Below are positions 9,001 to 64,000 of a stretch of 64,000 nucleotides of DNA, piece after piece (within the stretch, counting starts at the first letter, position 1; every line of letters starts with the position of its first letter). The DNA is from Clytia hemisphaerica (lineage: Eukaryota > Cnidaria > Hydrozoa > Leptothecata > Clytiidae). The notes beneath the pieces are model-generated. The model ran no database searches. It had not been told where the DNA came from and was given only the letters and a program-made list of their open reading frames with translations. The stretch spans positions 382,012-446,011 of the forward strand of contig CACVBU010001228.1 in the NCBI GenBank assembly GCA_902728285.1. Direction: 5' to 3'. A program made the translations under genes and the position numbers.

Positions 9001-10159
9001 GCCCACCATCAAGCATGGTTTAATTGTCAATAAAAGTGATTTTTGAAGCCGGAACTTTCTAAAAATCGCCGGAACAGCCTATTTTCGCCGGAAAAACGGT
9101 ATTTCTTGAATTTCTCGAGCTGTACTTTATATTTTTTCATGAAATTTTGCACACTGATGCAAAATGGCAATACCTAAAATATGACAGAGCCTGATTTTCA
9201 ATTAACGTACTTTTCCGGCCGAAAATGCCGGAAATATGCCGGAAAAACCGGTTTTTTGGCATTTTCTCGAGATTTCATCATTAGTTTTTTCTGATTTTTT
9301 GCACAAAGATGCGTATTAACAATGTCTAAAACATGGCCTAGTCCGATTTTTGAGAAAAAATTCTATTCCGGCTGAAAATGCCGGAAATATCCCGGAAATC
9401 GCCGTTTTTGCAGATTTTCATCGGACTTTTTCCTTATATTTCGTTGTTTTTTCACACAAAAACATTATTGATAGCAATGCCCACCATCAAGCATGGTTTA
9501 ATTGTCAATAAAAGTGATTTTTGAAGCCGGAACTTTCTAAAAATCGCCGGAACAGCCTATTTTCGCCGAAAAACGGTATTTCTTGAATTTCTCGAGCTGT
9601 ACTTTATATTTTTTCATGAAATTTTGCACACTGATGCAAAATGGCAATACCTAAAATATGACAGAGCCTGATTTTCAATTAACGTACTTTTCCGGCCGAA
9701 AATGCCAGAAATATGCTGGAAAAACCGGTTTTTTGGCATTTTCTCGAGATTTCATCATTAGTTTTTCCCTTCATCAAGCATCATTCAATTATCAATAAAA
9801 CTGATTTTTGCAACTGGAACTTTCTATTTCTTTTTTCCCTACTCTCCTTCCCTCTCCCCATCAACTATCAATGATAAAATTTAAGGCGTTTTGCAATCTC
9901 GCTATAAACGCTATATTTTCTGACGTGATTGTTTTCATTTTTCTCCTTATTGCTATCTAACTTTCATCATCAGGTAGGTCCATTCAGCATCTAGCTTGTT
10001 AGTTATTGATGCAGGATCGAAATTTTATAAATTGCCGCTAACAGCTTTAACTAACTTTTCTCCTTCACTCTCTAGTTGCTATACGATGAAGACTTGGTCC
10101 CTGGCTATGAAAACAAAATTGTCTCGTGGATTGAGAAGTTATCAGTAGAGGAGGTTTGA
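100..10159 (+). CDS. DIXDC1: Dixin (coiled-coil DIX domain protein), 3' nine exons
   Basis: Exons: 100-150, 486-734, 1297-1500, 3317-3418, 3962-4093, 4754-4841, 6549-6657, 7400-7508, 10076-10159 (TGA at 10157). Acceptors are AG, donors GT, and intron phases agree throughout (0,0,0,0,0,1,2,0), giving 375 visible residues; the gene starts left of the window. The first four exons are Glu/Lys/Gln-rich with heptad-like spacing, a coiled coil. A Ser/Thr/Lys-rich linker follows (3962-4841). The last three exons make a complete DIX domain: a [12 protein letters not shown] strand, [10 protein letters not shown], a [18 protein letters not shown] core, and a final strand with [13 protein letters not shown] domains polymerise head to tail and couple Dishevelled to Axin in Wnt signalling. 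The order coiled coil then C-terminal DIX, and the acidic stretch before PG.E.KIVSW, point to dixin rather than Dishevelled (N-terminal DIX) or Axin (RGS domain). The introns are loaded with transposons. The family call is strong; exact splice sites are read by eye. Confidence 0.87.
1874..3213. mobile_element. Inverted-repeat element in a dixin intron
   Basis: The left end is TATA followed by a G run and TTTTCA; the right end is TGAAAA, a C run, then TTATA, the reverse complement. Just inside each end are repeated ATACCGTAATACCG-type motifs on both arms. It lies within the 1501-3316 intron. No coding capacity is recognisable, so it is probably a non-autonomous DNA transposon. It contains two GAGCGAAGCGAGCG-like motifs, which recur elsewhere in the window. 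Confidence 0.55.
3486..3622. mobile_element. Foldback (hairpin) MITE, TATTCATGATATGCACCA family
   Basis: Near-perfect palindrome of about 137 bp: TATTCATGATATGCACCA at the left is the reverse complement of TGGTGCATATCATGAATA at the right, and pairing continues inward through the GAGAGTCTTCTGAGAA arm. The same 18-bp ends bound the hairpin at 61041-61196, whose interior differs. It lies in the 3419-3961 dixin intron. Confidence 0.75.
3631..3797. mobile_element. Second hairpin MITE (CGGAAACACC family)
   Basis: An inverted repeat beside the previous hairpin: TTGATATGCGTAAGTCAAGA pairs with TCTTGACTTAAGCATATCAA, and inner CGGAAACACCCGAAAACACC pairs with the reverse arm. A related hairpin with the same GGAAACACCGGAA and GTTACTAAAAAT inner motifs is at about 34015-34165. 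Confidence 0.6.
7110..7325. repeat. Degenerate short-motif repeat in a dixin intron
   Basis: Several imperfect copies of AATTCGCCAAATTAAATCC with CACGCCAAAATT variants on both strands occur between two DIX exons. The open frames across it are produced by the motif and are not a gene. Confidence 0.5.
8096..9981 (+). mobile_element. Composite GGACCTAC-ended element with internal tandem units
   Basis: Begins GGACCTACCCCGG and ends GTAGGTCC, which are inverted ends. Near the left end is a CGTTCGTCCGTTCGTTCGTC tract. Inside, a unit of about 474 bp rich in GCCGGAAAT is repeated (the same landmark occurs near 8843 and 9317). It fills most of the last dixin intron. A copy in the opposite orientation lies at 17392-18462, and end fragments occur near 22864 and 61370. 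It has no recognisable ORF; the class is unknown. Confidence 0.6.
8379..8838. mobile_element. TA-flanked inverted-repeat element nested in a larger element
   Basis: The ends are CCGTAAATCACCGATTAAGC and its reverse complement GCTTAATCGGTGATTTACGG, with TA on each side. The interior repeats AAGCGCCCCGCTTGAATAAG motifs. The neighbouring unit of the host element reads GATGCGTATTAACAATG without the insert, so the empty site is visible at about 9311. Confidence 0.75.
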
Positions 10160-11697: not shown

Positions 11698-14600
11698 TTA
11701 CATATCACCCGAATGGTGATCAAAGGATGGCAATCGACATTGAAACGTACCGAATCGAATATAATTAATCTTAACGTATCGCTTCTTGAAACGATTTCGA
11801 TCAAAATGAACCATGAATTCCAATTTGAAAATCGAATTCTTCTTAATAAAGCCATTGTACTCTCGATTCTCAATGCTGAAAATTTTGACATTCCTGGCTG
11901 CTGGTGTTCTGATTCCTTGAGGAACATCAAGGATTAAGATTTCCTTGGTGAAACCAACTTCCATATTCCAACCCTTCATGGTGTAATTGACCGGGATGTT
12001 GAATTCCGCCCTAAAACCGTCCGGTGGAGTGTTGTCAATCATCCGAATGTACTGGTCACAATCGGGGTATTTGATTGCTTCAGATTTGGGTTCGGGGCAT
12101 TGAAATTTCCCGAATTGGATTCCAGTGATTCCAATTTTCCCTGTCAACACGAAAGAAAATTGTTTACTTAGATGAATATTTAAAAGAAATATCTTCTTTT
12201 ATTTAAACCCAATTTTAAAAAACATTTAGACTGAAATTTGGGCAAAAACAATAAGAACATGGTACGTTGTAATAACGTTGGCCCAAAAATTAAGAATTTG
12301 CTCACGATATCCATGATGAAAGGCAAAAAGACACCATTCTTATAAAAAAAAGCGTGTAGTATTAAGTCAAAACTCAACTGAATTTTTCTATAGGCTTGCT
12401 TTCGAGGAAAGAATCTCTTGATTGCTTGTGTTTTTTTAGTCTCTTAAAAAAGCTTTCTCGTTTTTTTATAAGAACAAACTACCACCATTATGGTATGTAA
12501 GAACAAAGGGCTTCACTAGAATATTATGAACAAACATTTTAAGGCTTTGAAAACTTTAAAACACTCAATTTATTAGTAAATTGCACTAAAATACTAACAT
12601 AAGAACATTTTTGTGCTTAAAACTAGGTTAAGTTAAGAACATCCGTAGGCTGAAAATAATTTTGGGTGTTCTAATAAAAAAATTGTATTTTTCCCTACCT
12701 TTCATCCAGCGTTCGTGATGAATGGTCATATCAAGGCTGAAGAAACTATTCAAACGAAGTCTTCTCAGTTGGTCGGTAAATTTGATGAAAATTCGATACT
12801 CGCGATTATCGTTTGATACTCTACGTAAACCGTGATCACCTAAACAAAAATGAGATCCGAAGTTTTAGGAAGGGTAAAAGATTCTCTACCAACATACGCA
12901 TCATTTCCTCTCTGACACAATCGTATTATAAGAGGGCTCATTTTATTTATTTTTTCACTTCCATGAGTCCCGGGTAGGCTCACAAAAAACACCAAAATAG
13001 AAAAATTAGTCCCTCGTAGGGGTCTTCTTAGAAAAATTGGGGTAAAAAGTAGAAAATTTTGTAATTTCAGTCCCATTCAGGGTCACTTTTTCCTCAAATT
13101 TTGGCAATTTTTTTCAAAAAACCAGTCCCACATAAGGGTCCATTTTTCGAACCTCAGCGGAGCACCGCCCTGTCGGTCGGCAAGGGTAGTACCCCCTCCC
13201 CCGGTTAATAGTTGCAAAAATACTATAAAGAAAATTTCTATGAGCTTTACAATTTCGAATTTTTAGCTTATAAAAACTATAGTTCAAAAATTATATTGAC
13301 AACCTCACAGTTCCGGTGAAAATTTCTATCGAAATCCCAAGAGAGATGTTTGGTTAGGTGCAGTTTTTTCCATTCTCAAATGGGAATAAACAAAGTCAAT
13401 TTTCCAATTGGGCTTAAATTGCAAAGTATTTTTACACCAGGGACAAAACTTTGGTCAAATTTTCCAGAGGGATTGGGGTTTCTGACACAATGTTGTATAT
13501 TAGACCCTCTTCCACAAAGCAGACAAATTGCTCGCTAATGAGACGTGATTTCTCTTATTGACATGCAGTTATTGTTGGGTTATCGTAGTCCGAATGATGT
13601 TGAAATACACGTTTTTTTATAAGAACAAACTTTATAAGAACATAAGGCTTCGAGGCCCAAAAATTTAAGAACATTCTAAGAACATACTAAGGCTTTGGAG
13701 ACTTAAAAACATGCAATTTCTTAAGAAATTACATCAAAATGCTCAAAAAATGCTGAAAATAAGAACATCTTAAGAACATTTTTAGGCTTCAAATCCAAAA
13801 AACTAAGAACATCCGAAAAGGCTTCTAAAATTTTTGACGTTCTTAGAAATAAAAAAACGTGTTCACTAAAAAGTCATTATACCTTCAGGGATATCCAATG
13901 CATTTAGAGATCTGTTGAATTTGAGAATAACATGACCATCTTTGAATAAATCTTGTGGATATGGTGTCATTTCTTGTAAAACTGGTAACTCTAACATTCC
14001 TAGAAAAAAAAAAGATTCAGTTCTAAACTAATGAAGTGGAAGCTTTTGTAATCCATGTCAATTATGACGTCATATCATAAATTACTTTTTCCATAATTTT
14101 ACAAAAAAGGCAAAAACATTATTCGATTATTAGGCAGAATAGTAACAGTGAAATTTACATCCTAATACACTTCTTTTGAAATATAAATGCACCAAACTTA
14201 TGTCCTTTTTTTGGACATACCATAAATTACACGAGGGCATTTGTAGACTTTTAGGTTTCTTTTTATAAAAGCGAGAAAATTTTTGATGAGGCTCGGCTGT
14301 TTTTATTTTTTCAAAACTTTTGGCCTCAAATTTTTTTATCCTGTTCTAATTCTTAGGAGAAATTTAGGTTGTTTCTGCCTTGATATTTTTATCGTTTCGA
14401 TACCCTCAATTTGCCCGAAAGTCCGCCATTTCAGGCAAAGGATTGTTCTTAAATTGTTCTTATTTTTTGGAATTTTTGTGCCTCATTGTTCTAAAAAATA
14501 AGAATGTAAGAAAGCACACCCATAGCTACTTTTAGCTAATTTACCAACTGACATTTAATAACTGACAGGGTCAGCTTTTCGAACTCCATCGATTCTAAAT

Positions 14601-16748: not shown

Positions 16749-19700
16749 TCAGCTTGTTGAATGTCCACATTTGAAACGACCTGATCGAATATAAGTAACT
16801 TCCATACCTTGATCCGCATCAATAAAACGAACTTTGAAAAATAAATTTAATTTACTTTCATTTGAATTTTCACTATCAATAGCAGAGCTTATTTCATGTT
16901 GGTTTTGTATAGCAAATTCTTTTGAATCTCTGGCGTTCTTCGGTGGCGTATAGAGTCCATGATAAATAATCAATGTTTTGACCGGACTGGCAAAATGTAC
17001 TGTCATTCTATAACGATCCTTTGTAAGATTGGAAGGGATATTAAATCTTCCTTCGTATCCATCACTGAGGTTAGACATTATTCTAATGACAAAATCATCG
17101 CACTTTGAATAATAATAGAAGCTACTGGAATTCTGATTTGCTTTGGTTACTGTACTGCTCTGGTCATTTGATTCTTGTTCACTCGGTTCATCTGGGCATT
17201 TGAATTTTCCAAACTGAATGTAGACGATACCCAACTTTCCTATAAATAAATCATATTGTTTTACAGGAGCTGGAATTAAAGGGACATAAAAGTACTGACG
17301 AAATTTGTAAACAAACCGTATGCAGCTGGATACAAAATCAAAACAAATGTCACATGTCAAAATAAACATGCTATGCTGAATGGACCTACCTGATGATGAA
17401 AGTTAGATAGCAATGCGAGGAGAAAAATGAAAAAAAATCAGTCAGTAAATATAGCGTTTAGCGAACATACATAAAGCAATAAATTCATCATTGATTGTTG
17501 ATGGGGGGAGAGGGAAGGGTTGCAGGGAAAAAATAAATAGAAAGTTCTGGTCGCAAAAATCAGTTTTATTGACAATTGAATCATGCTTGATGGTGAGCAT
17601 TGTTATCAATAATGTTTTTGTGCGAAAAACATACAATGTATAGCAATGTACCCTCCCGGTTATTACCATAATGGCTTTATGGCAACTCCTGAACTTGGGC
17701 ACAGGATGTACGGATGTGTGAAAAACATAGAAATATAAGGAAAAAATCCAATGAAAATCTGCAAAAACGGCGATTTCCGGCATTTTCAACCGTAAAAATT
17801 TTTCTTAAAAATCGAACTCGGCCATGTTTAAAAATCAGAAAAAACTAAATTTTCGGCCGGAAAATTTTTTTTTTGAAAATCGGGCTCCGTCACATTTTAG
17901 GTATTGCCATTTTGCATCAGTGTGCAAAATTTCCTAAAAGAATATAAATCACAGCTCTAGAAATTCAAGAAATACTGTCTTTCCGGCAATATAGGTTGTT
18001 CCGGCAATTTTTCCAGCTTCAAAAATCAATTTTATTGAAAATTGAAACATGCTTGATGGTGCATTGCTATTAATAATAATGCTTTTGAATGAAAAAACAA
18101 CCAATTATAAGGAAAAAGTCCAATGAAAACCCAGAAAAACGGCGATTTCCGATTTCGGTCACAAAAATCAAACTGGGCCATGTCTTGGACAATATTAATA
18201 CGCATCTTTGAGCAAAAAATAAGAAAAAACTAATGATAAAACCTCGAGAAAATGCCAAAAAAACATTTTTCCAGCATATTTTTTTTCGAAAATCGGGCTC
18301 AGTCACTTTTTAGGAATCATCATTTTGCATCATTGTGCCAAAAAAAACAGAAAAAAGTAATGAGCCAATCCCGAGAAAAGCTGGTAACAGACGGACTAAC
18401 GAACGGACAAAAGTGGGTTAATTATTTAAAGGACCTCCAAAGGGGTACCCGTAGGCATGTCCAAAAATCAAAGCAAATATGGCTGATTTTGATTGTATAC
18501 CGAGTTTATCGTTCTACATCTGCAATTTGAGCTTTACTAAGCTCATTTGACGTCGATCGATACTTAGATTATCAGCCGGATTGACATCAATCACTGTATC
18601 TCACCAACATTCTGCCGATTGGTAGTGTGAAGGTTTCGATCACAGACTTTCACCGCAATGGACTGTGTTCGAATCCCAAGCACTTCCAGGCAGGGGGTGT
18701 TAGGGAAATATGGCGATAGACTCTCTACCTTCAATCACTGATTTTGATTGTTTCAATTGTTTTACAAGTTTGTTTTGGACACGTGATTTTAATTGTTCGT
18801 TTTAATGACACGTGGTTCGCGCAATGTTTACATTTTACTACTTTTATGTCCCTTTATCAGGAAAATTGGTTCCCAAAAATTAGTTTCATCTATAATCAAG
18901 ATTACTCTTATCAAATTCACCATTGTTTTAAAACGTACATAAGGTATTTAGATTCCACGAAATTATCTGTGTTGAGATCATTGAAATATCAAATTCTGAA
19001 TTCCAGAAGCTTTCAAAAGAGTTTCGTAATATTTGATAAATTCCATGTACTATGTCACGAATAATGTTTGACATCTCAATCATTAAGTTTAAAACCCGAA
19101 AGGCTACTTAGAGTAGAATCTTTTACCTTTTTCAGGCAAGAAAAAGTGAAGCCACTTATTTCCCATCCAGAATGCGCCTAGAACGCAATCATGACGACGG
19201 ATTGTATCTATAGTGGTTCCTTTGTTTTTGAGGACTGCTTTTTTTTATCTAGCGATTGATCTTATTTTTAATCCGGCGTTTGTGTAAAAACCACGCGCGG
19301 GCGTTCTGGATGTGAAATTAAGTAGCTTCATTTCCCATCCAAAAGTTTCTAGTCTAGCCCCTTCGGGGCTTTAAACTTTAGATAATGAACGGTTTAGATA
19401 ATAATACGAAACACTTTTAAAATCCTAAACTCTGTCTTATCAAATTGGATTCCCAATGGATTGTATTTCAAATGGATCTGATTCTTGTGGAGCCCAATTC
19501 TTTAAAATACCGTGTATTGGTCTAATGTCGACACGCCTCATCTAATTTGACACCTTTCTTTAGAGATAGGAATAATAAGAAAGTCGGAATCGCTTTATTC
19601 ATTTGCTTAGCAGTCAGAGAGAAAAAAACCCTTCGTCAACCTTCTTATTATTCTTATCTCTGAAAAGAAGGATGTCGACGGTGCCATGACGGTACAGAGG

Positions 19701-31699: not shown

Positions 31700-32612
31700 T
31701 TCGATGAACAATTATAGGCATTTACTTTATAAGAATCAAATCAATAACTCTTGATTGAAGGCAATATGCCTTTCGGTAATTAGTTCTTACAAAGTAAACA
31801 AAGAATGGCAAAAAAGATTAGCATATTTATTTTTATTATAAATATCTACTTTATAAGAATCAAATCAATAACTCTTGATTGAAGGCAATATATCTTTCGG
31901 TAATTAGTTATTAGAAAGTAAACAAAGGATGGATAAAAAGATTAGCATATTTATTTTTATTATAAGCATCTACTTTATAAGAATCAAATCAATAACTCTT
32001 GATTGAAGGCAATATATCTTTCGGTAATTAGTTGTTAGAAAGTAAACAAAAGATGGCGAAAAAGATGAGCATATTTATCTTTATTATAAGCATTTTCTTT
32101 ATAAGAATCAAATCAATAACTCTTGATTGAAGGCAAAATATCTTTCGGTAATTAGTTATTAGAAAGTAAACAAAGGATGGCGAAAAAGATTAGCATATTT
32201 ATCTTTATTATAAGCATCTACTTTGTAAGAATCAAATCAATAACTCTTGATTAAAGGCAATATATCTTTCGGTAATTAGTTCTTACAAAGTAAACAAAGG
32301 ATGGCGAAAAAGATAAGCATATTTATTTTTATTATAAGCATCTACTTTATAAGAATCAAATCAATAACTCTCGATTAAGGGCAATATATCTTTCGGTAAT
32401 TAGTTCTTACAAAGTAAACAAAGGATGGCGAAAAAGATGAGCATATTTATTTTTATTATAAGCAACTACTTTATAAGAATCAAATCAATAACTCTTGATT
32501 GAAGGTAATATATCTTTCGGTAATTAGTTCTTACAAAGTAAACAAAGTATGGCGAAAAAGATGAGCATATTTATTTTTATCATAAGTGTCTACTTTATAA
32601 GAATCAAATCAA
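31700..32612 (-). repeat. ~123-bp satellite array, about 7.5 copies
   Basis: Tandem units beginning TTTATAAGAATCAAATCAAT recur near 31727, 31850, 31973, 32096, 32220, 32343, 32468 and a partial near 32591. Each contains CTTTCGGTAATTAGTT, AAAGTAAACAAAG and AGCATATTTATTTTTATTAT. It is the reverse complement of the array at 58200-60021. I assign minus so that the 58200 array is plus. Confidence 0.9.
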
Positions 32613-33647
32613 TTTCAGAATTTTTGGCGTTTTTACTGTGATAAAATGTGAGCGATAACTTCTCTTTTTGAGATGTGAGCGACCGTCTATCCCATGTCAT
32701 CTCAAAAGTAAAGTTGGAACAAGCTTTCTTCCTCCAACTTAAATTTTATCGATAAAACGAATTTAAAATCTACACATGCGTAATTTTGCTTACTTAGGGA
32801 TATTTCGATAGGAAGCTCTGCGGGGCATTCTTAGCGACAGCTACTTGCTAGTATATGTCAATAATGACCTTCATTTTTAAGGAAATATTTAGTCGCAATT
32901 TTGCGATTCTTGTTCCTAATAATTTTCCAAACTTTCACTATAAAGCATTAAAAAGCTTTAATCAGCATTTAGTCGTTATAAGCATTTGTAGCGGGTGGCA
33001 GTTAGTGAAAGCTATGGCTAGTTAGACCCTTTGGCTGGGGGGAGTAAAAATGGTACTGGTTATATTCGGACCATTTTTTCAAAGTTGCATGCATAAACTT
33101 TTGAGAATAAAACGAAAATTGGTTTAAAAGTGAAAAATATTCCTCGAATCCGATTGAAACGTTGAAATGGTTGTCCATGGGCAATCGTTCAATATGGCAG
33201 ATATTTTGGTACTTGAGGCACAAGATCAATAAAGAGTAGGCTAGGAAACACTGTGTGCATGAATGAATTTGAAGCTAACCAAAGATACATTGTGTTAATC
33301 TATATGGGGTTTAAGAGAGGTATATATGTAAATAAGATGAAAAATAAAATAAAATTCAAAACATCGACCTTTCATAATTAAAAACAAAAGAATTTGTTAT
33401 CGCATATCCAATAAATATTAATGATTCTTCCCTCCCCACAAAAATAAATTGTGGAAGAAAAATTGGAAAATTGAAAAATAGGACAGATATATGCGAAATA
33501 AAACCACAAACCATTAATACTTAACAAAGTCAAAAAAAAATTGAAGAGAAAGGTTTTTTTTGGAGAAATTAAGGGTAGTTGAAGGGAAAAAGATTGAAAC
33601 ATAACAGAACTTAGTATAAGGAATATAAGGATATAAGGCTAGAATCT

Positions 33648-50068: not shown

Positions 50069-51060
50069 TCAATATTCGAAATCATCCGTAATAGAGTCCT
50101 TATTTTCAACGTATTTATCGGATGGTAATAAGGCGTCGGATCCACGCCCAAAACTTGCGCCCTCCTGTTCTGCCAGTTCTAAAACACCACCCCAGAGGCG
50201 GTCAGTCCTTAACAATCGATGACAACCAACAATAATTAAATGATGTTTAGCACGAGACAGCGCTACATTGGTGCGCCGCGGACAGTTTATAAATCCGATA
50301 AATTTGGTTCGTACGCACGACAAAATAATAACGTCTTTTTCTGCACCTTGAAAAGCATCAACTGTTGAAATTTGAACACCTTTTAACTCTATTGCCGATA
50401 GAACTCCTGATTCTTGTAATTGGTTGGAAATTCGGTTCACCTGAGCTTTATACTGGGTTATGATTCCAACTTGGGTCGGTTCAAGACCTTCTGCTAAGAT
50501 CGCGTTAACCAGTTTTACACAATACTGTACTTCCTTAACGTTGAATAAACTGCCATCGGAGGCTGTTGCTTCCTTTCCGTCCGAAATATCAGCAATTGAT
50601 ACTGGACCTAACCAATCAAGTAACGGGCCTCGATCATCGGTCGAAACTCCATCCGTAAGCATTCCTTTATAAAACATCTTACTGCATAGCAAACTGATCG
50701 CTGGGTGACATCGGTATTGACATCTCAAAATGATAGGATTCAGGCCAGCTTTCTGTAATCGCTCGAATAAAGTCACTTCCAAACCTTCTGGATGTGCACT
50801 TTCTGACCCTTGAATAGTTGGACTGAGCTGGTTAGGATCACCAACCAGCACTAGCCTTTGACAATGGAAACGAGCAATTGGCACCATGGATAGAGGCTCG
50901 ATCATTTGACTGCATTCATCCAGAAGATGTACTTGGAATGTCAGATTCTTCAGTAAAGGAAACGAGCATGCAGCACACGTCACACCAACGACTCGGACTC
51001 GATTCAATCGTGTTCGATTGGCACCCATTTTGTGAGCTTCGATTGCTTTCTTAACATAAT
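50069..51060 (-). CDS. ZGRF1: ZGRF1 last exon: helicase motifs II to VI
   Basis: Starts in phase 1 with DYVKKAIEAHKMGANRTRL. Visible superfamily 1 (UPF1-like) motifs in order: VVGVTCAACSF (motif Ic region), LLDECSQM (Walker B, DExxQ box), LVGDPNQLSPTI (motif III), LRCQYRCHPAIS (motif IV), STVDAFQGAEKDVIILS (motif V) and RRTNVALSRAKHHLIIVG (motif VI). All catalytic residues appear intact. The C-terminus is a short acidic tail ending DDFEY. Confidence 0.9.
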
Positions 51061-54000
51061 CTGTAAAAAGAAATGATCGATTATGAATGAACATGTTTTA
51101 AAACAGTCCTAGAGTAGAGGTTAGCGTTAGAAATTGAGGCTCTGAGACTAAAAAATATCCCTCGTCAGTTGATTTTATCAAATATTAACAAACAGTATAC
51201 TTCAGCTCTGACACGAGCACTAACTTTCGCGAAGATTTAAAAAATTAATCCACGCGAAATTTAATCGATTAAAGCAGATTGCACCTTATTTCACTGTGAC
51301 AAGCAATAAATGCTATACCTTTTTCAGTGTCAGTGAGAGGCGATTTCAAGATGGTGTTTAATTCTCTAAGTTCTTGGTCCTCATGATCTTCAGCATGTAA
51401 ACTGTTCGGTAAAATTCGTTTCGAGATCTTCCGTAAACTACCCACCCGAATGAAATCATCATAACCATGTTCCAAAAGGGCACATAGAACTCTGTCTACA
51501 GCAACATTCGTTGTTGAAGATATCATAAGTTTCAAAGTGTTCGATTCCCAACCTTGATGTCTCTCGATTAATTCGAAAACTTGTAGCAAGAATATCACAA
51601 CTACGGATAATAAGAAGCTTTTGCCAGCGCCAAAGACACCATGAATTAGCGTAATATCTTTGATTTGGTTAGGAGGAAGCTCTTCGAAAAAGGACGTTTG
51701 TCCTTGTGCAGAATGTGCGGAATTCAAGGCCTGTTTGAGGAACATAGCAGAAATATGTTGCAAGGCTTTAGCCTGGTCTTCGTTGAGGGAGAAATTCTGT
51801 ATAGTGTTTTCGATCAGCTCTCCTATGCTGTTTTCATCGAGACAAGATAAGTCTTTAGGTTCGTGAAAATCCTGATCTCGTGTAGAATCTTCATGAGGCA
51901 ATAGAACGTGTTTTAAGACAGGAACATCATGGATTCGCAGATTTTCTTCTAGATTTTCAATGCAGGATAGTTCAGTGGATGCATTATAGACTTGGATTGC
52001 ATAATAAGTCTCGTTTTCATGCCATTGTGACATACTGTACGAAGCTAAAGGACATATCTCTAACTCACATGAGGAATTTGGTCCGTAAAATACACTTTTT
52101 GCAACGAAAGTATCTCCTGGTGTAAAATCAATTGTTTTTGAGATTACCCATAAGTCAGCTTTGTTGTAAAAACTGGACGACCTTTTGAAAGGTAAAACAA
52201 GATATAGAGATTTCTTTGGACGGTCGAATCGAGCTTGCGGTTCTTTACGTTTTCGGTTAAAAAAGTTCATAGCCTTTCTCATAATCTTTGTTTGCCCATA
52301 GAATTGTATATTATGAGATTCAAGCATGGTAGATAAAGAACGATAGTCTGCGATAGTGACTTTCCTAAATTTTGTTGATTGGACTGCATAGGTCTGTGTT
52401 TTTGAGGAATTTTGTTTATTCTGCTCGTCGAACCATTGGAAGAGGTTACAACGTTTATCAGTTGATGCAGAGCACGTATAAAACATTCTTCCCTTATTCT
52501 TTCCTTCCTTCTTAACAGATCGTAAAACAGCTGGACCGTGTTTACAACTTGGTTTGTTAGGGTCTGTAGGCTCATCCACTGAATCGGTTCCTGAGAGTTG
52601 AGTTAGATCAACGTTATTGATAGCCTTGTGATAACGGTCACTTGTAGACCATAAAATGATATTAAGGTGCTCCAAAATAGCCTGTTTGAATGTCTGTTTG
52701 TATTGGCTGACTGATTCGTATTGTAGTGGAAGTTTCATTTCACGTTGCGGTGTTGGGTTGCTTTTGCATTGCTCTTTTGACGGGAATGCGTAATCAACAC
52801 CAGGGCGGTTTAGATTCGAATGGGCGGTCGTTGGCGGATTGAATTTTGGATAATGCAGGTTTGACGTGGGTTGGACGTTTGAATGGTGATAGGTAGAGGT
52901 TGGCGGGTTGAATCTCGAAAAATGTGATTGTTTGATAGGAAAGGTTGTCGATGCTGAGATAAAACATAGGAAAATTATCGTTTTGTGCTGTTAGCGTTGT
53001 AGCTACCTAAGTGAAATGTTGGAAGGTAAAAAAAAATGGACCTATAAAACATAACTTTTTTTAAGGGAACTAATAAAGACGAGTGACCGATTTTTTTAAT
53101 TCAGCAAGAACTAGATTTGGAGAATGATGGGTGTAAATTGGTTTCCTAAAATAAGCATTTGAAACAAACAAATTTGGACGAAGTAAATTTTTTTTCTCCA
53201 AAATTCGCTTTAAAAATTATCTCCCGTCAAAAAAAATACATCACGTTAAAGATTTCAAGACGGGTGCAGTTCGTCCGTCGTCTAGATATTCTCTGGCGTT
53301 CATCAGTAACGTAAATAAAGCCTGGAATACACTGGGACGAGGATGATCTCTTATTTTCAGCATCAAAAACAATGACAATAAAGTGCTTATAAAAGACCAC
53401 TATTCAGATCATAGTGGACGGGCTTAAGGTAGGTGAAAAATGAAAATAGAACCTCTGCTTGGAATTGGTTGATGACTTGTAGTAGCAAGACTCGATACCT
53501 ATAACAAAAAAATAAAGGGCTAACTTAACAATTAAAACATTTGGGTAAACTTAACTTAACACGATTCTTCGGTTTTACTAGGTTTTAAGAAGACAACACT
53601 GATCTTCTCAAAGAAAACACACATCCATGATAAATCTCACATATAACTAGCAATATCATTTTTAAAGTATTGAATAAGATGCTTATGATTAAGAAATAAT
53701 TTATTGTGAACTAAGAAAAAATGCATTGCACCGTATTACGTTGAGTCATAGAATATTCTTATTTTTAGAATAGGCTTTTCCAGAAAGATTCCATGCCCCA
53801 CTGTTGAGGATATCGGATATCCAGATGGTTTAATACTATCTGGGTATCCAGGGGGTACAGGGCAAAATTCATTAATATCCAGGATTTTATTCTTAAGCCA
53901 GACATCCAGGGGCTGTGCAACTTGAAAAATGGATATCCTCGACAAGGGATGGCGGCGGGAAAATTTTTTGGAAAACCTCAACAGCCTTGTTTTCTTATTT

Positions 54001-57000: not shown

Positions 57001-60000
57001 CCCTGGCCTGAGGGGGGGGGGGCTAAAAGGTCGAGCAGCAATTGGTACCTGATTTTAGCCTGTGGCTAGGGGGGGGACTAACCATGTTAGGGGTCACCTA
57101 AATTTTTTCAGATGGACCTGGGGGCAAGATTCTATGTTTGGTGATTGAATTATAAGCAGCCTACCAGACCATAGGTTGACACTTTTTCATCTTATATTTT
57201 AATCTAAGCAATGCTCAAAAACTGACAATTTGGTATCTAATATATTATCTGCAGTGCCGTAGCAACTGGGGGGGGGGGCAAGGGGGGCTATGCCCCCAAT
57301 TATTTTTTCAAAAATGGTTATTTTGCAAAATGCAAAGTTTTTCTTTTTTAATTTGTCATAACTGTCTTATAAGTGCATGTTTTGAGTGCATTTTCAAGCA
57401 ATCTAGAGCTCAAATTTTCAAAATTTTCTCCCTCAGGCCAAACCATGGTCGGCCCTCGCTGTGTCACTTAACTTCCGCACCCTAATATGAAAATGCTTCC
57501 TACAGCACTGATCTGTACAAATTCTTTAACCCTGTTGCATTTGCTTAGATAAAAAATTGGTCTGGCAAGGGATCTGCACCCTGACTTACAAAACCTTGAT
57601 AATCTAGCATGAACCTTCAGTACTTAGCTTATCTCTTATTTCTTAGGGTATTTATTCTATTTAGCAATAAGCTAAACTAACTGTTGTATTTGTTTGATTG
57701 TTTGAAAATGATTTTCGAATTTTTTTTACGTGTTATTGGCTTAGGGGTCACCTAAAATATTTGGCAACCAGAGGTTACCCAAATCTTAGGGGTCACCTGA
57801 ATTCTTAGGGGGCACCTAAAACCTGCTGCCAAGCCACGAGGTGGATCTTAGGAGGGGCGCTTATTCGAGGGGGGATTTATTTTCATAAGTCATTCGGTAA
57901 ATATAAATCCCATGAATTGAAAAATTCAGACTTAAAGCCAGTATTCAAACTGAAAATATTTTCCATATTAAGTCACTTTTCCAGTAGAAAAATTAAAATA
58001 AAAAAAACAAGACGACTTAAAGTCGAAAATTTCGCCTAGAACTTAAACTACATAGAAAAAACAAGAAGTAGAGATTGAAGCCAATTCGAAATCTACTTTA
58101 CATCGAGCCTTGATGAAACAATTTTACAAGAACAACAAGGCTTAAAATTGCTAACAAAGAGACCAATTTAAGAACAACTGTTGTTTAATTTTTAAGAACT
58201 AATAAACAAAGGTAATATCACCGTCTATCAAAAGTTATTTATTTGATTCTTATAAAGCAAATGCTTGTATAAGAAAGATGAATATGCTCATATTGTGCGC
58301 CATCTCTTGTTTATTTTGTAAGAGCTAATTACCAAAAGGTATATTACCGTCTATCAAGAGTTATTGATTTGATTCTTATAAAGTAAATGCTTATAAGAAA
58401 AATAAAAATGCTCATATTGTGTGCCATTGCTTGTTTACTTTGTGAGAGCTAATTACCGAAAGGTATATCACCGTCTATCAAAAGTTATTTATTTGATTCT
58501 TATAAAGCAAATGCTTGTATAAGAAAGATGAATATGCTCATATTGTGCGCCATCTCTTGTTTATTTTGTAAGAGCTAATTACCGAAAGGTATATCACCGT
58601 CTATCAAGAGTTATTGATTTTATTCTTATAAAGTAAATGCTTATAAGAAAAGTAAATAAGGTCATATTGTGCGCCATACCTTGTTTACTTTGTAAGAACT
58701 AATTACCAAAAGGTATATCACCGTCTATCAAGAGTTATGGATTTGATTCTTATAAAGAATATGCTTATAAGAAAAATAAATATGCTCATATTGTGCGCCA
58801 TACTTTGTTTACTTTGTAAGAACTAATTACCGAAAGGTATATCGTCTTATCAATAGTTATTGATTTGATTCTTATAAAGTAAATGCTTATAAGAAAAATA
58901 AATAAGGTCATATTGTGCGCCATCCCTTGTTTACTTTGTAAGAACTAATTACCGAAAGGTATATTACCGTCTATCAAGAGTTATTGATTTGATTCTTATA
59001 AAGTAAATGCTTATAAGAAAAATAAATAAGGTCATTTTGTGAGCCGTTCCTTGTTTACTTTGGAACAACTAATTACCGAAAGGTATATCACCGTCTATCA
59101 AGAGTTATTGATTTGATTCTTATAAAGTATATATGCTTATAAGAAAAATAAATATGCTCATATTGTGCGCCATACTTTGTTTACTTTGTAAGAAACTAAT
59201 TACCGAAAGGTATCACCGTCTATCAATAGTTATTGATTTGATTCTTATAAAGTATATGCTTGTAAGAAAAAAAATAAATATGCTCATATTGTGTGCCCCA
59301 TACTTTGTTTACTTTGTAAGAACTAATTACCGAAAGGTATATCACCGTCTATCAATAGTTATTGATTTGATTCTTATAAAGTAAATGCTTATAAGAAAAA
59401 TAAATAAGGTCATATTGTGCGCCATCCCTTGTTTACTTTGTAAGAACTAATTACCGAAAGGTATATCACCGTCTATCAAGAGTTATTGATTTGATTCTTA
59501 TAAAGTAAATGCTTATAAGAAAAATAAATAAGGTCATTTTGTGAGCCGTTCCTTGTTTACTTTGGAACAACTAATTACCGAAAGGTATATCACCGTCTAT
59601 CAAGAGTTATTGATTTGATTCTTATAAAGTATATGCTTATAAGAAAAATAAATATGCTCATATTGTGCGCCATACTTTGTTTACTTTGTAAGAACTAATT
59701 ACCGAAAGGTATATCACCGTCTATCAAGAGTTATTGATTGGATTCTTATAAAGTAAATGCTTATAAGAAAAATAAGTAAGCTCATAATGTGCGCCATCCC
59801 TTGTTTACTTTGTAAGAACTAATTACCGAAAGGTATATCACCGTCTATCAAGAGTTATGGATTTGATTCTTATAAAGTATATGCTTATAATAAAAATAAA
59901 TATGCTCATATTGTGCGCCATACTTTGTTTACTTTGTAAGAACTAATTACCGAAAGGTTTATCACCGTCTATCAAGAGTTATTGATTTGATTCTTATAAA

Positions 60001-61314
60001 GTATATGCTTATAAGAAAATAAAGAAAAAATCAAAACTGTGGAGCTAAAGACACAAAGATATATGACGTAATCCAAAGAAAACCCGCGAAAATCGTCCGT
60101 GGTTATACGAGCGTGTAATTTGTAAATTAAATTTAGTGAGTTCGTCCACCGTATCAAGCACTTTCGTTTTCTAATTTTTTTTCCGATGACACCGCCGCCG
60201 CCGCAGAAAGGCTATCGTAATACTTTCGCTAAGCGAAATTAACAAACCTTTTTATTCACAAAAGGAGCAAAACTTTTTGATTGTACATTTGTTGTAGTAG
60301 CCCTAACTGTTATAGCATTGTTTGGATTTTGTTCATCTTTTGATTGACATTCAACAGTGATTAAAAATTTGTCACTCTCAAGATCTGCATCATCTACAAG
60401 CTAAAAAAAATGAATGGCAATGTTAAAAAAACCTAGCCGTGAGCCATTTGATTCGTCAGAAACCTGCACCTAGGGTTAAAAGCTGTAAAACCGATGTCTG
60501 AAACCTTCCAACTCGAAACTTAAACTATAATGCTATTGGTACAAAATCAATGAAATGAAAAAAGAAAGGTAGTTGAAATCTTTGTTTTTCAAAGATTACA
60601 TTATACTTCATACTCTCTACTTTTTTGTACCTTTTTCGATCAATACGGATTGTCTTGAGGATCACACAACCATGTGATAACTAAAAATTAGCTAGATGCA
60701 TAAGAAATGCCAATTGCGAGGCTGACGAGGCTTAGCTATTTTTTTAACTTTTCATTCCATCTCTTCGGAGAACTAGGTGTAGTTGGAGCATCTTATAGCC
60801 TGGTTACGGCAATCGAAATAGGAAAAAGGAAAATTCTGATATAAAACTACCCATGCATAGGTTGGCGTCTTGCACAGGGCTCTTTTTTTGCCTCATGGGG
60901 TGTTTGACCTCTTTAGACTCTTACTATGATGTTCCCGGTGGCTCGGGCATTAGAAACAATAAGCTATCGAAAGAATTTCCGACCTAAGTCTTCAATAACC
61001 TAGATCGAAGTCGGATGATGATTTTTTCAGATACTACAATTATTCATGATATGCACCATTGCAATGTCTTCTGACATTACATCACCGACCCAACAGCTGA
61101 TTGGTTGTAAGTGACGTAAAATCAGTCATTACGTCAATTTCAACCAATCAGCTGTTGGGTCTGTTGAAGACATTGCAATGGTGCATATCATGAATAGAAG
61201 TGAGTCTTCTTTTTTGATTGTATCAAGAATACTTCAATCAACAGTTCTCTTTACCTCTTCTGGCTTTACAAATAGGCTATCCAGGGCAGTCCCACTCTCA
61301 GAATAAATTGTAGC
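50069..61314 (-). CDS. ZGRF1: ZGRF1-like GRF zinc-finger SF1 helicase, eight exons
   Basis: Exons on the minus strand: 61314-61255, 60400-60248, 56816-56775, 56437-55679, 54166-54026, 53498-53453, 52953-51319, 51060-50069 (stop). Phases agree at every junction (0,0,0,0,0,1,1), giving 1275 residues. The first two exons (ATIYSESGTALDSLF, then DLESDKFLITVE) match the N-terminal DUF2439 region of ZGRF1. A long, polar, probably disordered stretch follows, then a GRF zinc finger (CKHGPAV...GRMFYTC...CNLFQWFDE) and a superfamily 1 helicase core. ZGRF1 is a 5'-3' DNA helicase that promotes RAD51-dependent homologous recombination and branch migration. The first coding exon, which should complete DUF2439, was not found between 61315 and 62345. 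The gene is head-to-head with gene F. Confidence 0.87.
51319..52953 (-). CDS. ZGRF1: ZGRF1 large exon: GRF zinc finger and Walker A
   Basis: Starts in phase 1 with a Pro/Asn/His-rich segment (RFNPPTSTYHH and KFNPPTTAHS, an internal near-repeat). The GRF zinc finger has ligands Cys-x-His then Cys and Cys, with the GRMFYTC signature. Further on are a helicase N-terminal beta-barrel-like region, the Q-motif area NFSLNEDQAKAL, and Walker A as GVFGAGKS, followed by ISSTTNVAVDRVL (motif Ia). The donor at 51319 (AAAAAG|GTATAG) is used; reading on leads to a stop at 51269. Confidence 0.88.
54206..54550. mobile_element. ACACG-family MITE in a ZGRF1 intron
   Basis: Starts ACACTTTTTTATGAGAATAG and ends ATATTCTTATAAAAAAGCGTGT. 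It is longer than the reference copy and its interior is diverged. Confidence 0.55.
54681..54964. mobile_element. GCCGGCGGAGAGAC inverted-repeat element
   Basis: The left arm GGCGGAGAGACTTTTTGGAA then ATGTGTTCT pairs with AGAACACATTGG then AAAAAAAGGTCGCCTCGCC at the right. GAACACAT motifs recur inside. In a ZGRF1 intron. Confidence 0.45.
55679..56437 (-). CDS. ZGRF1: ZGRF1 disordered-region exon
   Basis: A 759-nt exon of 253 codons, phase 0 at both ends, flanked by a CTTATTAG acceptor and an AAAAG|GTAATC donor. The protein is polar, Asn/Ser/Gln-rich, with an acidic run (FGDSDDDEFFKDSQE) preceded by TNDLLSL. Human ZGRF1 has a comparable long unstructured middle. It is assigned to ZGRF1 by strand, phase and position, not by domain. 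Confidence 0.7.
57252..57480. mobile_element. CAGTGCCGTAGCAACTGGGG element end
   Basis: CAGTGCCGTAGCAACTGGGG followed by a G run and GGGGGGCTATGCCCCCAATT looks like the left end of a hAT- or MITE-type element of a kind common in marine invertebrates. I could not find its right end, so the extent is arbitrary. Confidence 0.35.
58200..60021 (+). repeat. ~124-bp satellite array, about 15 copies
   Basis: Units with the TCACCGTCTATCAAGAGTTA landmark occur near 58216, 58345, 58468, 58592, 58717, 58841 (damaged), 58965, 59088, 59212, 59344, 59466, 59589, 59713, 59837 and 59961. Each contains TTGATTTGATTCTTATAAAG, TATTGTGCGCCAT, TGTTTACTTTGTAAGAACTA and ATTACCGAAAGGTATAT. Adjacent multi-unit blocks look duplicated: 58889-59120 and 59391-59620 share an unusual TCATTTTGTGAGCCGTTCC. 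The array lies wholly inside the ZGRF1 intron between exons 60248 and 56816. Confidence 0.92.
61041..61196. mobile_element. Foldback MITE, TATTCATGATATGCACCA family, copy 2
   Basis: Near-perfect palindrome: TATTCATGATATGCACCATT to AATGGTGCATATCATGAATA, with inner CCCAACAGCTGATTGGTTG paired with CAACCAATCAGCTGTTGGG. It has the same 18-bp ends as 3486-3622 but a different stem and loop. In a ZGRF1 intron. Confidence 0.75.
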
Positions 61315-62345
61315 CTGAAAAATAGAAAATAATACAACTTAGAAATAACATAGTTACATGCTGAATGGACCTACCTGATGACCGATGTAATAAGAATATA
61401 GGGGGAAATGGCAACAATAGAAAGAAATGAGAAATACAGAAAAAGGTAAATCATGCTCATAGCACTTTCCAAGGTTAATTTCGAAACGATCAAGTTTTTT
61501 AATCTGCATTAACAATATCTATTTACTGGTCTAAAGTTCACAACTCAATCTCGAGATATATATATCATTTGAAAACAACTTGAGTGTGTCAGTGTCAGTT
61601 GGGATCCCTTCTAAAGATTTTGTACATTGCCAGAACCCTTGTGGAGAAAAATAAGATTGAAGGATAATCGAAAATATTATGAGCTTCTAGCTTTTCGTCC
61701 CTTGTGTTTTTGTTTACATCGTATGGATTATTTTCTTGTGAATAACAAAAGATCAAAGAAACTTGCGGTAATTTTTTTATGTCTGTAAAATACAAATATA
61801 GCACGCTACTGGGTCTGGGTCAAAACAATAAAGTTTTGATTTGAATTTATATAATTATCTATCTGGTCAAAATTTCAAATTAATAGCACTTTCAAATCAT
61901 GAGATACATATAAGGATATATCATCGGATATAGGGGTAAATATAGCATGATTTCCTAGGACCTTAGGATCTCAGGATCTAAAAGCTCAAAAATGTTCCAA
62001 TAAGGCTGAGAATAAATAGCCTGGAAGCCACTTAACCCCTCCCAAATCGAAAATAAAAGCCTAGGTAATTTTCGAGAACCATTCCTTTCGTGTTAATTTA
62101 TCGCACTCAGTTTTCCCGAGTTAAATAGTTACGATTAAGAGATCACGTGATCTATCTTAATTGAAAAAATTGACGTCACTCAACAGAAAAATTACATCAA
62201 ATAAAAAATATATTTGACGTCAATCAAAAAAAAAAAACATTAGAAAAACAATTTCAAAATTTTGTTCTCCATTCGAGAATCCAGATTTGAGTGAAGTGTT
62301 CGCAAAGAATTTTTACTCGAATCTTGCATCATTATATTGTTTATC
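61315..62345. promoter_or_regulatory. Putative bidirectional promoter, ZGRF1 / gene F
   Basis: ZGRF1 reads left and gene F reads right from this 1-kb gap, so their promoters and 5' UTRs, and the missing ZGRF1 first exon, probably lie here. A TTGACGTCA motif occurs at about 62170 and 62213. The left part (61360-61440) is an end fragment of the GGACCTAC element. No TATA box or start site can be fixed. Confidence 0.35.
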
Positions 62346-63718
62346 ATGAGTGATATAATGGCTAATATGGATATTCATACATTGACAGATGATCAGCAAA
62401 CAATCTTGCAATTGCAAGATACCATTTATTTTCTGGAAGGAAAACTTTCAGAAAAAGATAAAGAAATTATTCGTCTAAATGTCGACCTCCGTCGCACGAT
62501 GGACGTAAGTTAAATGAATTGTTATCTTGGCATTGTTTAAACATTTTTATAATATAATAACTTTGCTGCATTACAAACAAAAGCACAAACAGCGTTATTA
62601 GCTTGAAAACTTAAATTAAGCTTAAAATTTCATTGTTAAGCGAACTTTACTCTGCACTAAATCCTTAATAATATTATGTCTCACTCCACTACATCCACGT
62701 AAACTCAGTAATAACTTATTCAGTTTATTGTCATCGGGATACTTAATGTAAGCGTATTTACTTATTTCTTACCGCCTCTTATATTTAGGAGCGTCAACTT
62801 TGCCTCCAATTCGAAAATTCTGCTCTAAAGAGGAAGGCAGCTGAACATAACAAAACCGTCCTCCCTTTGAGGAAAGAAAATAATGAATTGCGAGCAGAAA
62901 ACGAGTCTCTCACAAGTACCATTATCGGACATATGGAGAGAGAAGCAAAACGAGGAAAAGGTAAAGACGCAGCATCGCAAACTATCGAGTTGCAACCTAA
63001 AACAACCTCCAGTGGTTGTCAAACGCTTGACATGCAACCTAAAATAACCTCCAGTGGTTGTCAAACACTTGACATGCAACCTAAAACAACCTCCAGTGGT
63101 TGTCAAACACTTGACATGCAACCTAAAACAACCTCCAGTGGTTGTCAAACACTTGACATGCAACCCACAACAACCTCCAGTGGTTGTCAAACACTTGACA
63201 TGCAACCCACAACAAGCTCCAGTGGTTGTCAAACACTTGACATGCAACCTAAAACAACCTCCAGCGGTTGTCAAACAATCGGTGCACAACTTAATACAAC
63301 CTCAACCGGTAGTCAAACGATCAACAAGCAACCCAAAGTTACCTCAACCGGTTGTCAAACAATCAACAAGCAACCCAAAGTTACCTCCAGTGGTTGTCAA
63401 ACGATCAACAAACAACCCAAAGTTACCTCCAGTGGTTGTCAAACGATCAACAAGCAACCCAAAGTTACCTCCAGTGGTTGTCAAACGATCAACAAGCAAC
63501 CCAAAGTTACCTCCAGTGGTTGTCAAACAATAAACATACAACCAAAAGTTACCTCCAGTGGTTGTCAAACTATCAACAAGCAACCCAAAGTTACATCCAG
63601 TGGTTGTCAAACGATTAACAAGCAACCCAAAGTTACCTCCGGTGGTTGTCAAACAAATGTTCATTGGTACGTCGAAGATAAGAACCCATTGAACGTTGGT
63701 GGCTTTGGTTTACCTAAG
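62346..63718 (+). CDS. Coiled-coil protein F with 14-residue CQT repeats, 5' two exons
   Basis: Exon 1 62346-62504 (53 codons; ATG then GAC|GTAAGT) and exon 2 62789-63718 (310 codons; CTAAG|GTATTT), both phase 0; the gene continues to the right. Residues 15-110 are a likely coiled coil (QLQDTIYFLEGKLSEKDKE; RKENNELRAENESL). After a basic patch (EREAKRGKGK) and ASQTIELQ, sixteen 14-residue units follow with consensus P-K-x-T-S-S-G-C-Q-T-[L/I]-[D/N]-x-Q, then NVHWYVEDKNPL. The first seven units use LDMQ, the later ones INKQ. Each unit holds x-Q-T flanked by polar residues, similar to the T-Q-T core of dynein light chain LC8 ligands, with Cys in place of the first Thr. No orthologue recognised; LC8 binding is an inference. 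Confidence 0.75.
62996..63667 (+). repeat. Coding minisatellite, 16 x 42 bp
   Basis: Sixteen uninterrupted units of exactly 42 bp, sharing ACCTCCAGTGGTTGTCAAAC. Because 42 is a multiple of 3, the frame is kept and several other frames on both strands are also open; these are not genes. Units 1-7 and 9-16 form two sub-families, with unit 8 (ACCGGTAGTCAAACG) as the junction. Confidence 0.95.
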
Positions 63719-64000
63719 GTATTTATAATTTCCACCTCTCACCGTATAGTTTTAGAACATAATCATCTCTGGCTGAACTACTTTTTGACCACTTTGTAAG
63801 GTGACTATTGGAAAAAGACTACCAACATTTTTGAGTTTTGAGTTGAAAAACATAATCAAGAATGGAAAATCAACAACAACAAGTTTGCAATACCCTATTT
63901 GAAATAAAATTCATTATCTTGAATCTGGCAGAATGCTCTACAATCCGATTAAGTAAAAATAAAACTTAGTGTCTGATGCATCCAGCGCTAATCGCGTTAT
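63719..64000. other. Intron of gene F (start)
   Basis: Follows the donor at 63719. No further exon with convincing splice sites was found before the window ends. Confidence 0.4.

Follow-up and report, generated by a model that had tools for sequence, protein, structure and literature searches.

A family of coiled-coil genes in Clytia hemisphaerica with a selected 14-residue S-x-G-C-Q-T ladder, a putative array of LC8 docking sites

Introduction

Near the end of a 64,000-nucleotide stretch of the Clytia hemisphaerica genome (C843:382012-446011, hereafter the window), an open reading frame joins coil-like sequence to a long run of evenly spaced Gln-Thr pairs. A sequence-only reading of the window proposed that the encoded protein could line up a row of dimers of LC8 (DYNLL). 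This raises the questions of whether the frame belongs to a gene, whether the repeat is kept by selection or is a tandem array in a tolerant stretch of protein, and which kind of partner the repeated motif might dock.

Results

Gene structure and the ladder

The ladder-bearing open reading frame is part of a real gene, with the following features in the window and just past its end.

62141..62345 (+): 5' flank or 5' UTR block, conserved between copies
62346..62504 (+): exon 1, 53 codons, with the ATG, heptads and the donor GTAAGT; first half of the coiled coil
62505..62788 (+): intron 1, GTAAGT...ATTTAG, phase 0
62789..63718 (+): exon 2, 310 codons of open frame, phase 0 at both ends; rest of the coil, ladder and tail
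62789..62956 (+): coiled-coil segment 2 (LxxxNxxLxxxNxxLxxxI zipper) and basic hinge, from heptad scan, AF2 helix and a dN/dS of 0.09
62957..62998 (+): anchor 0, KDAASQTIE, preceding the regular ladder; in register, 14 residues, 48-60% DNA identity to ladder units 1-15
62999..63670 (+): ladder, 16 units of 14 residues; core S-x-G-C-Q-T, linker mostly [I/L][N/D]xQPK
63671..63718 (+): conserved exon-2 tail VEDKNPLNVGGFGLPK, present in 14 of 14 copies, dN/dS 0.16
L070 2380-2523, just past the window end: exon 3, 48 codons, basic, DLKKRSPKTKDQKPNNNRVFGGPKKGRKAAFKPSQAATTNKGGFGLPT; based on a block aligned across 14 loci
L070 2897-2917, past the window end: exon 4, six codons DMRKRM and a stop; a pattern-based reading

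The exons recur in the related copies described below. Exon 1 and its donor are the same in all 14 copies, a GT donor follows GLPK or GLPE at the end of exon 2 in every one of them, and the exon 3 block can be aligned in all 14 loci, L064 having a GC donor at this exon. The exon 4 reading was recovered by a simple pattern in only four of the 14 loci. Together, exons 1-4 predict a full protein of about 417 residues. An end of the gene at 63799, with an AATAAA at 63903, was rejected, since the copies share both the donor that follows GLPK/GLPE and the block of exon 3. Upstream, among the blastn matches listed, L057-L064 and L066 align to the block 62141-62551 with about 87-91% identity, and L065 aligns from 62230 on with 84%. 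In L066, part of exon 3 is missing and a run of T stands in place of the donor; this copy may be decaying.

Exon 2 contains 17 [C/S]QT anchors, and all 16 steps from one anchor to the next measure exactly 14 residues; the DNA array under the ladder has a period of 42 bp, 15.9 copies and 0% indels. This bears out the sequence-only reading, which had described 16 perfectly spaced 14-residue units after a coiled coil and a seventeenth x-Q-T (ASQTIE) ahead of them, the latter lying at 62957-62998 in the same register. The ladder was likewise found where it had been placed (62996..63667), although in the phase used here it runs from 62999 to 63670. The pattern S-G-[C/S]-Q-T-[L/I]-[D/N], which had been assigned to each unit, is the majority pattern, but it does not hold in every one: unit 7 has QTIG and unit 16 has QTNV. 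Counting from the Gln of the anchor as position 0, residue -3 is Thr in units 8 and 9 and Gly in unit 16, and residue -1 is Cys in 15 of the 16 units and Ser in the other. The composition of the ladder is polar, being rich in Thr, Gln, Ser and Lys. The arrangement as a whole is not due to chance, since all 14 gene copies, that of the window among them, have it.

A family of 14 copies in the host genome

A search of the 417-Mb host genome with exon 1 gave 14 matches at E < 1e-25, the next one, at E 0.8, being seemingly unrelated. Five copies lie on C338 and one each on C308, C234, C883, C708, C554, C835, C410, C832, C843, the C843 copy being that of the window. Of the 86 rows of a further search of this genome, three of the weaker matches (L071-L073) are other repeats. 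A repeat that was absent from relatives sharing the coil would have spoken against the original proposal; within the host genome, where this was checked, coil, ladder and tail occur together in 14 of 14 coil-bearing copies. The number of QT sites per copy ranges from 12 to 28, the counts for L067 and L068 (18 and 14) ending where the first frame is lost. In 12 of the 14 copies the ladder stays in frame into the tail. The frames of L067 and L068 break within the ladder although the codons of coil and tail are conserved, which could reflect decay or an assembly error. Across the family, the 236 linkers between successive ladder units give a pitch of 14 residues in 225 cases, 13 in eight and 15 in three.

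Pairwise dN/dS among the copies, the frame-broken L067 and L068 included, is 0.11 for exon 1, 0.09 for the first 69 codons of exon 2 and 0.16 for the tail. Intron 1, on the other hand, is only 47-58% identical to that of the window copy in 10 of the 13 other copies, and 80-85% identical in the remaining three. Conserved exons around a diverged intron point to selected genes, and to neither a fresh array nor an element; judged by these substitution patterns, the 14 copies are genes under selection. A mobile element is disfavoured on the same grounds, although a 5' block is conserved as well.

Selection on the repeated motif

Pooling the ladder units of the 14 copies, with anchor 0 of each excluded, gives 250 units, in which Ser at -4 is kept in 248, Gly at -2 and Gln at 0 in 246 each, Cys at -1 in 240 and Thr at +1 in 228. 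The nearly uniform Cys at -1, pointed out earlier for the window copy, is thus found across the family; Phe, Tyr or Trp occupies this position in seven of the 250 units. An exact S-x-G-C-Q-T is present in 213 of the 250 units, and in 209 of 236 when the last unit of each copy is set aside; among the 22 misses at +1, 10 are an Ala in the last unit. In 10 of the 14 copies (L057-L070) this last unit carries Ala at +1, and four of the 10 lack the Gln as well.

Among the 225 units whose linker is six residues long, the core (-4..+1) has a dN/dS of 0.092, as against 0.66 for +2..+6 and 0.88 for +2..+4; because ladder units are not independent of one another, these ratios are descriptive and not exact tests. 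When one unit was drawn per gene, the core ratio was below that of the linker in 300 of 300 resamplings. A test on the window copy by itself, which has four nonsynonymous and seven synonymous changes in -5..+2, is weak (P 0.006-0.016 when compared with neutrality; Fisher p 0.13 for footprint versus linker), and the family data take its place.

The linkers differ by gene: ICVQPK is preferred in L062, IELQPK in L064 and L066, and INKQPK in L065, L068 and the window copy. Units are also closer within copies than between them (0.172 versus 0.234), and together these observations indicate that the arrays were turned over largely separately while the core was kept. Position +4 accepts Lys, and also Leu, Met, Ala, Val and Thr, and unit length in the family varies from 13 to 15. 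In the linkers of L057-L070, a Lys at +4 is accompanied in 25 of 30 cases by a Val at -6 in the unit that follows, other +4 residues going mostly with Thr at -6; this pairing could stem from shared descent or from a coupled contact.

The S-x-G-C-Q-T core bears, on this substitution evidence, the mark of a short linear motif under selection, and the sequence-only reading's proposal of a repeated motif beside a likely dimerising coil is well supported. It is most improbable that the ladder is a coding minisatellite that evolves neutrally within a disordered, tolerant linker, with a motif that has no function. The 42-bp tandem array and its differing length between copies are what a minisatellite would show, and a pattern scan for two GCQT at a 42-bp pitch found six viral and 42 prokaryotic stretches, suggesting that such arrays can arise without LC8. 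The contrast between core and linker (0.09 versus 0.66) and the frame held through to the tail in 12 copies argue against it. TSSGCQT was absent from all 47 of the 48 GCQT-pair loci that were inspected (all but L045) by translating about 400 bases around the first match per strand. Even if its partner should not be LC8, the family is a clean example of a short motif under selection whose surrounding repeats turn over separately in different genes.

Coiled coil and fold of the ladder

The sequence before the ladder had been read as a coiled coil, and two lines of evidence agree with this. Firstly, when residues 1-115 are scanned for heptads in stretches of 28 residues, their best score exceeds that of shuffled sequences (P 0.01; 0.064 for segment 2 alone), the best window being QQTILQLQDTIYFLEGKLSEKDKEIIRL. 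Secondly, an AF2 single-sequence model of exon 2 contains one helix at residues 2-55, with a pLDDT of about 50-57. Asn at two core positions of a coil, as in segment 2, is suggestive of a parallel dimer. Taken with the heptads, these residues suggest that the coil probably dimerises as a parallel two-stranded zipper.

A parallel coil would place equal Cys residues side by side. A thiol ladder, in which two chains in register, with a Cys at each 14-residue step, form inter-chain disulfides or bind metal to give a cross-linked structural protein, would account for Cys at -1 in 240 of 250 units. We nevertheless consider it very unlikely: Gln at 0, Gly at -2 and Ser at -4 are kept at least as well (246, 246 and 248 of 250) and disulfides need none of them, anchor 0 has no Cys, and the N-terminus shows no signal peptide by eye, so that the setting is probably reducing.

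In the AF2 single-sequence model of exon 2, the ladder is drawn as regular strands of a beta-solenoid (pLDDT about 70, pTM 0.54). The ladder could accordingly be pictured as a solenoid rod of 14 residues per turn, structural or self-assembling, with Ser, Gly, Cys and Thr as turn or core residues. A wrong-frame control from part of the same array scored lower overall (pLDDT 51, pTM 0.33), and the solenoid was retained as a rival because the real frame scores above this control. However, the control is stranded as well, though regular only over its first five repeats (pLDDT 52-68), and AF2 has been reported to draw confident, unrealistic solenoids for perfect repeats (PMC11795689). A Foldseek search against the PDB gave no match at E <= 0.001, to a solved solenoid or otherwise, the best being at E 0.019. 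The range of residues at +4, Lys among them, and the variation in unit length fit poorly with a regular rod. On balance, we regard the solenoid as unlikely.

Searches for relatives were otherwise negative. PDB sequence searches with exon 2, with three ladder units and with the coil returned nothing convincing, no convincing relative of the ladder protein was found in Pfam, and a protein search of IMG/VR yielded none. A Pfam match to DUF3739 (filamentous haemagglutinin family; 34 bits against a cut-off of 27) was dismissed as a repeat artefact, the reversed ladder passing the cut-off of the unrelated Stig1. A literature search found no paper with SSGCQT, GCQTIN, GCQTLD, TGCQTI, CQTINK or GCQTD.

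LC8 as a candidate partner

The host has LC8 at two loci, which encode identical and near-canonical proteins (80 of 89 residues identical to DYNLL2). Beside these two loci there is a third, divergent dynein-light-chain piece, L076.

Several features of the motif fit LC8. In LC8 structures, side-chain hydrogen bonds are frequent in the anchor and at -4, and positions -1 and +1 are buried (PMC6607443); four positions of S-x-G-C-Q-T (-4, -1, 0 and +1) coincide with these side-chain contacts. The family has the Gln-Thr anchor with a mid-sized residue at the buried -1 position, and purifying selection acts on the motif relative to its flanks, as would be expected of an LC8 client. Gly at -2 is frequent in phage-selected LC8 ligands and typical of the G-I-Q-V-D class (PMC3078936). 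There is also a precedent for the CQT anchor: in SAO-1 of C. elegans, a crystal structure shows DLC-1 bound to a CQT at 199-201, 12 residues past a VAT site, and the region with both sites has a Kd of 0.5 uM for DLC-1 (PMC9630320).

The flanks fit less well. The polar -4 is as LC8 prefers (Ser in 248 of 250), but the large or basic residue at -3 and the Pro, Asp or Glu at +2 are not found, these positions being mostly Ser and mostly Ile, Met or Leu, respectively; a small -3 and a hydrophobic +2 have been named as unfavourable. The Phe, Tyr or Trp at -1 in seven of the 250 units also speaks against LC8. These rules are preferences and not strict, BMF having Leu at +2 (PMC3078936) and CAPRIN2 being an exception with Ala at -3. 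The closest peptide tested by ITC, TASGTQTV of SH3RF2, is a non-binder, and SATGTQTS of MUC3A binds.

On a home-made PSSM, built from 26 LC8 binders and 29 non-binders (leave-one-out AUC 0.73 with the non-binders, 0.82 for binders only), the units score under most binders, anchor 0 excepted on one matrix. On the binder-only matrix, TSSGCQTI is outscored by every one of the 26 binders; on the discriminative matrix, it outscores 8% of the binders and 17% of the non-binders. TSSGCQTL scores above 12% of binders and 48% of non-binders on one of the two matrices, and above 19% and 66% on the other. KDAASQTI of anchor 0 is likewise outscored by every binder on the binder-only matrix, but on the discriminative matrix it ranks over 54% of the binders and 83% of the non-binders. 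None of the training peptides has Cys at -1, which is part of the penalty on the units. Position by position, ligand variability follows ladder dN (rho 0.65, with 236 of 5000 permutations as high); the LC8 profile does not single out the QT register, starts at +4 and +6 equalling that at -5 (rho 0.66, 0.64 and 0.65, respectively).

The proposal of LC8 as the ladder's partner therefore stands in part: the constrained positions fit and CQT has its precedent, but single units look weak or non-binding by the flank rules, the PSSM and the SH3RF2 peptide. Multivalency could make up for this. Fusion to a leucine zipper raised LC8 affinity by at least 8-, 11-, 80- and 547-fold in four peptide pairs, the limits being those of the instrument (PMC3078936), and several nearby motifs are thought to aid the binding of weak ones (PMC6607443). 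We consider the chances about even that this is a coiled-coil-dimerised docking ladder that relies on avidity and has LC8 as its likeliest partner.

The same architecture could instead dock another beta-groove or hub protein through its S-x-G-C-Q-T ladder. A motif that is clearly selected, yet breaks LC8 preferences at -3 and +2 and scores poorly, would be explained in this way, and the constraint on G-C-Q-T, with its almost invariant Cys, is unusual for LC8. The CQT precedent in SAO-1, by contrast, is an LC8 site. To our knowledge, no other hub recognises a [polar]-x-G-x-Q-T motif. We give this alternative a modest chance, well short of that of LC8.

Other features of the window

About 1.1 kb 5' of the ladder gene, positions 61041-61196 form a long imperfect, MITE-like palindrome (78% self-complementary over about 160 bp), a 34-bp piece of which is found again at 3486. 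On the minus strand, 50069-52990 contains two frames that encode a GRF zinc finger and helicase domains of the SF1 type (AAA_11/AAA_12; Pfam), which we take to be a ZGRF1-like gene. The same 124-bp satellite occurs at 31711-32613 and 58181-60023 in opposite orientations, about 82-88% alike. Positions 8836-9766 and 17849-18342 are accounted for by a direct tandem duplication of 477 bp and, about 8 kb from it, an inverted copy that has diverged (76-84%). Two look-alike minus-strand frames, 11698-12198 and 16749-17402, both have I-Q-F-G-K-F close to the beginning and R-x-G-x-F-[K/Q]-C towards the end and are possibly paralogous; neither has a Pfam match over the cut-off.

Discussion

If LC8 is the partner, the ladder protein would be a scaffold of about 417 residues, probably intracellular, whose N-terminal coil pairs two chains in register. 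Past the coil, each chain would be a disordered ladder of 17 docking motifs, or of 12 to 28 in the sister genes. An LC8 dimer would clamp two equivalent motifs as beta-strands, one dimer per rung, and the paired chains would in this way carry a row of up to 17 LC8 rungs, the weakness of single sites being offset by avidity. The short, basic, lysine-rich C-terminal tail might tether such a rod to an acidic partner such as nucleic acid or microtubules. An 8-residue LC8 footprint leaves linkers of six residues, which fall in the short-to-middle range; in constructs of ASCIZ, linkers in this range made for LC8 complexes that were more homogeneous (PMC10046861).

A bolder version adds that the Cys in the buried -1 pocket is a redox switch on each rung, reduced thiols docking LC8 and oxidised or cross-linked ones being unable to, and that in this LC8 ladder family of 12 to 28 rungs the rung number sets rod length. 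This version is speculative and, in our view, rather unlikely to hold as a whole.

Should LC8 bind, the family would constitute a natural set of scaffolds that are dimerised by a coil and carry 12 to 28 near-identical sites at one pitch, and the way in which weak identical sites add up to rods, through cooperativity, register and linker length, would become directly testable. Binding would also establish CQT as a main anchor, and confirm an unusually long LC8 scaffold.

Provided that the LC8 reading holds, the ladder protein would be a putative member, and a variant, of the multivalent LC8 clients. Among the titles and abstracts listed in searches for tandem or many-site LC8 clients, none concerns a tandem-repeat ladder of this kind. 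SAO-1 resembles it in its CQT anchor, both of its sites being bound by LC8 dimers in a 2:4 complex, and differs in being a GYF-domain protein with two sites, for which no ladder is mentioned (PMC9630320). EML3, SPAG5, OFD1 and other clients share an LC8 motif, that of EML3 lying in a fragment that also contains a coiled coil, but theirs are canonical TQT motifs, one listed per protein. The yeast nucleoporin Nup159 with Dyn2/LC8 has several LC8 sites beside a coiled coil and forms a stiff beads-on-a-string rod. Binding has been shown for its five sites, whereas the 17 of the Clytia ladder (12-28 in the family), with their CQT anchors and uniform 14-residue pitch, are putative LC8 sites read from sequence. 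ASCIZ/ATMIN also has a disordered region rich in LC8 motifs, of which 11 have been verified in the human protein, with seven in that of Drosophila, but it is a zinc-finger transcription factor, monomeric when unbound, with uneven linkers and mostly TQT anchors. With its 11 sites, human ASCIZ was termed the richest LC8 partner in 2018; if the LC8 reading is true, up to 28 rungs would be more than twice that number of verified sites.
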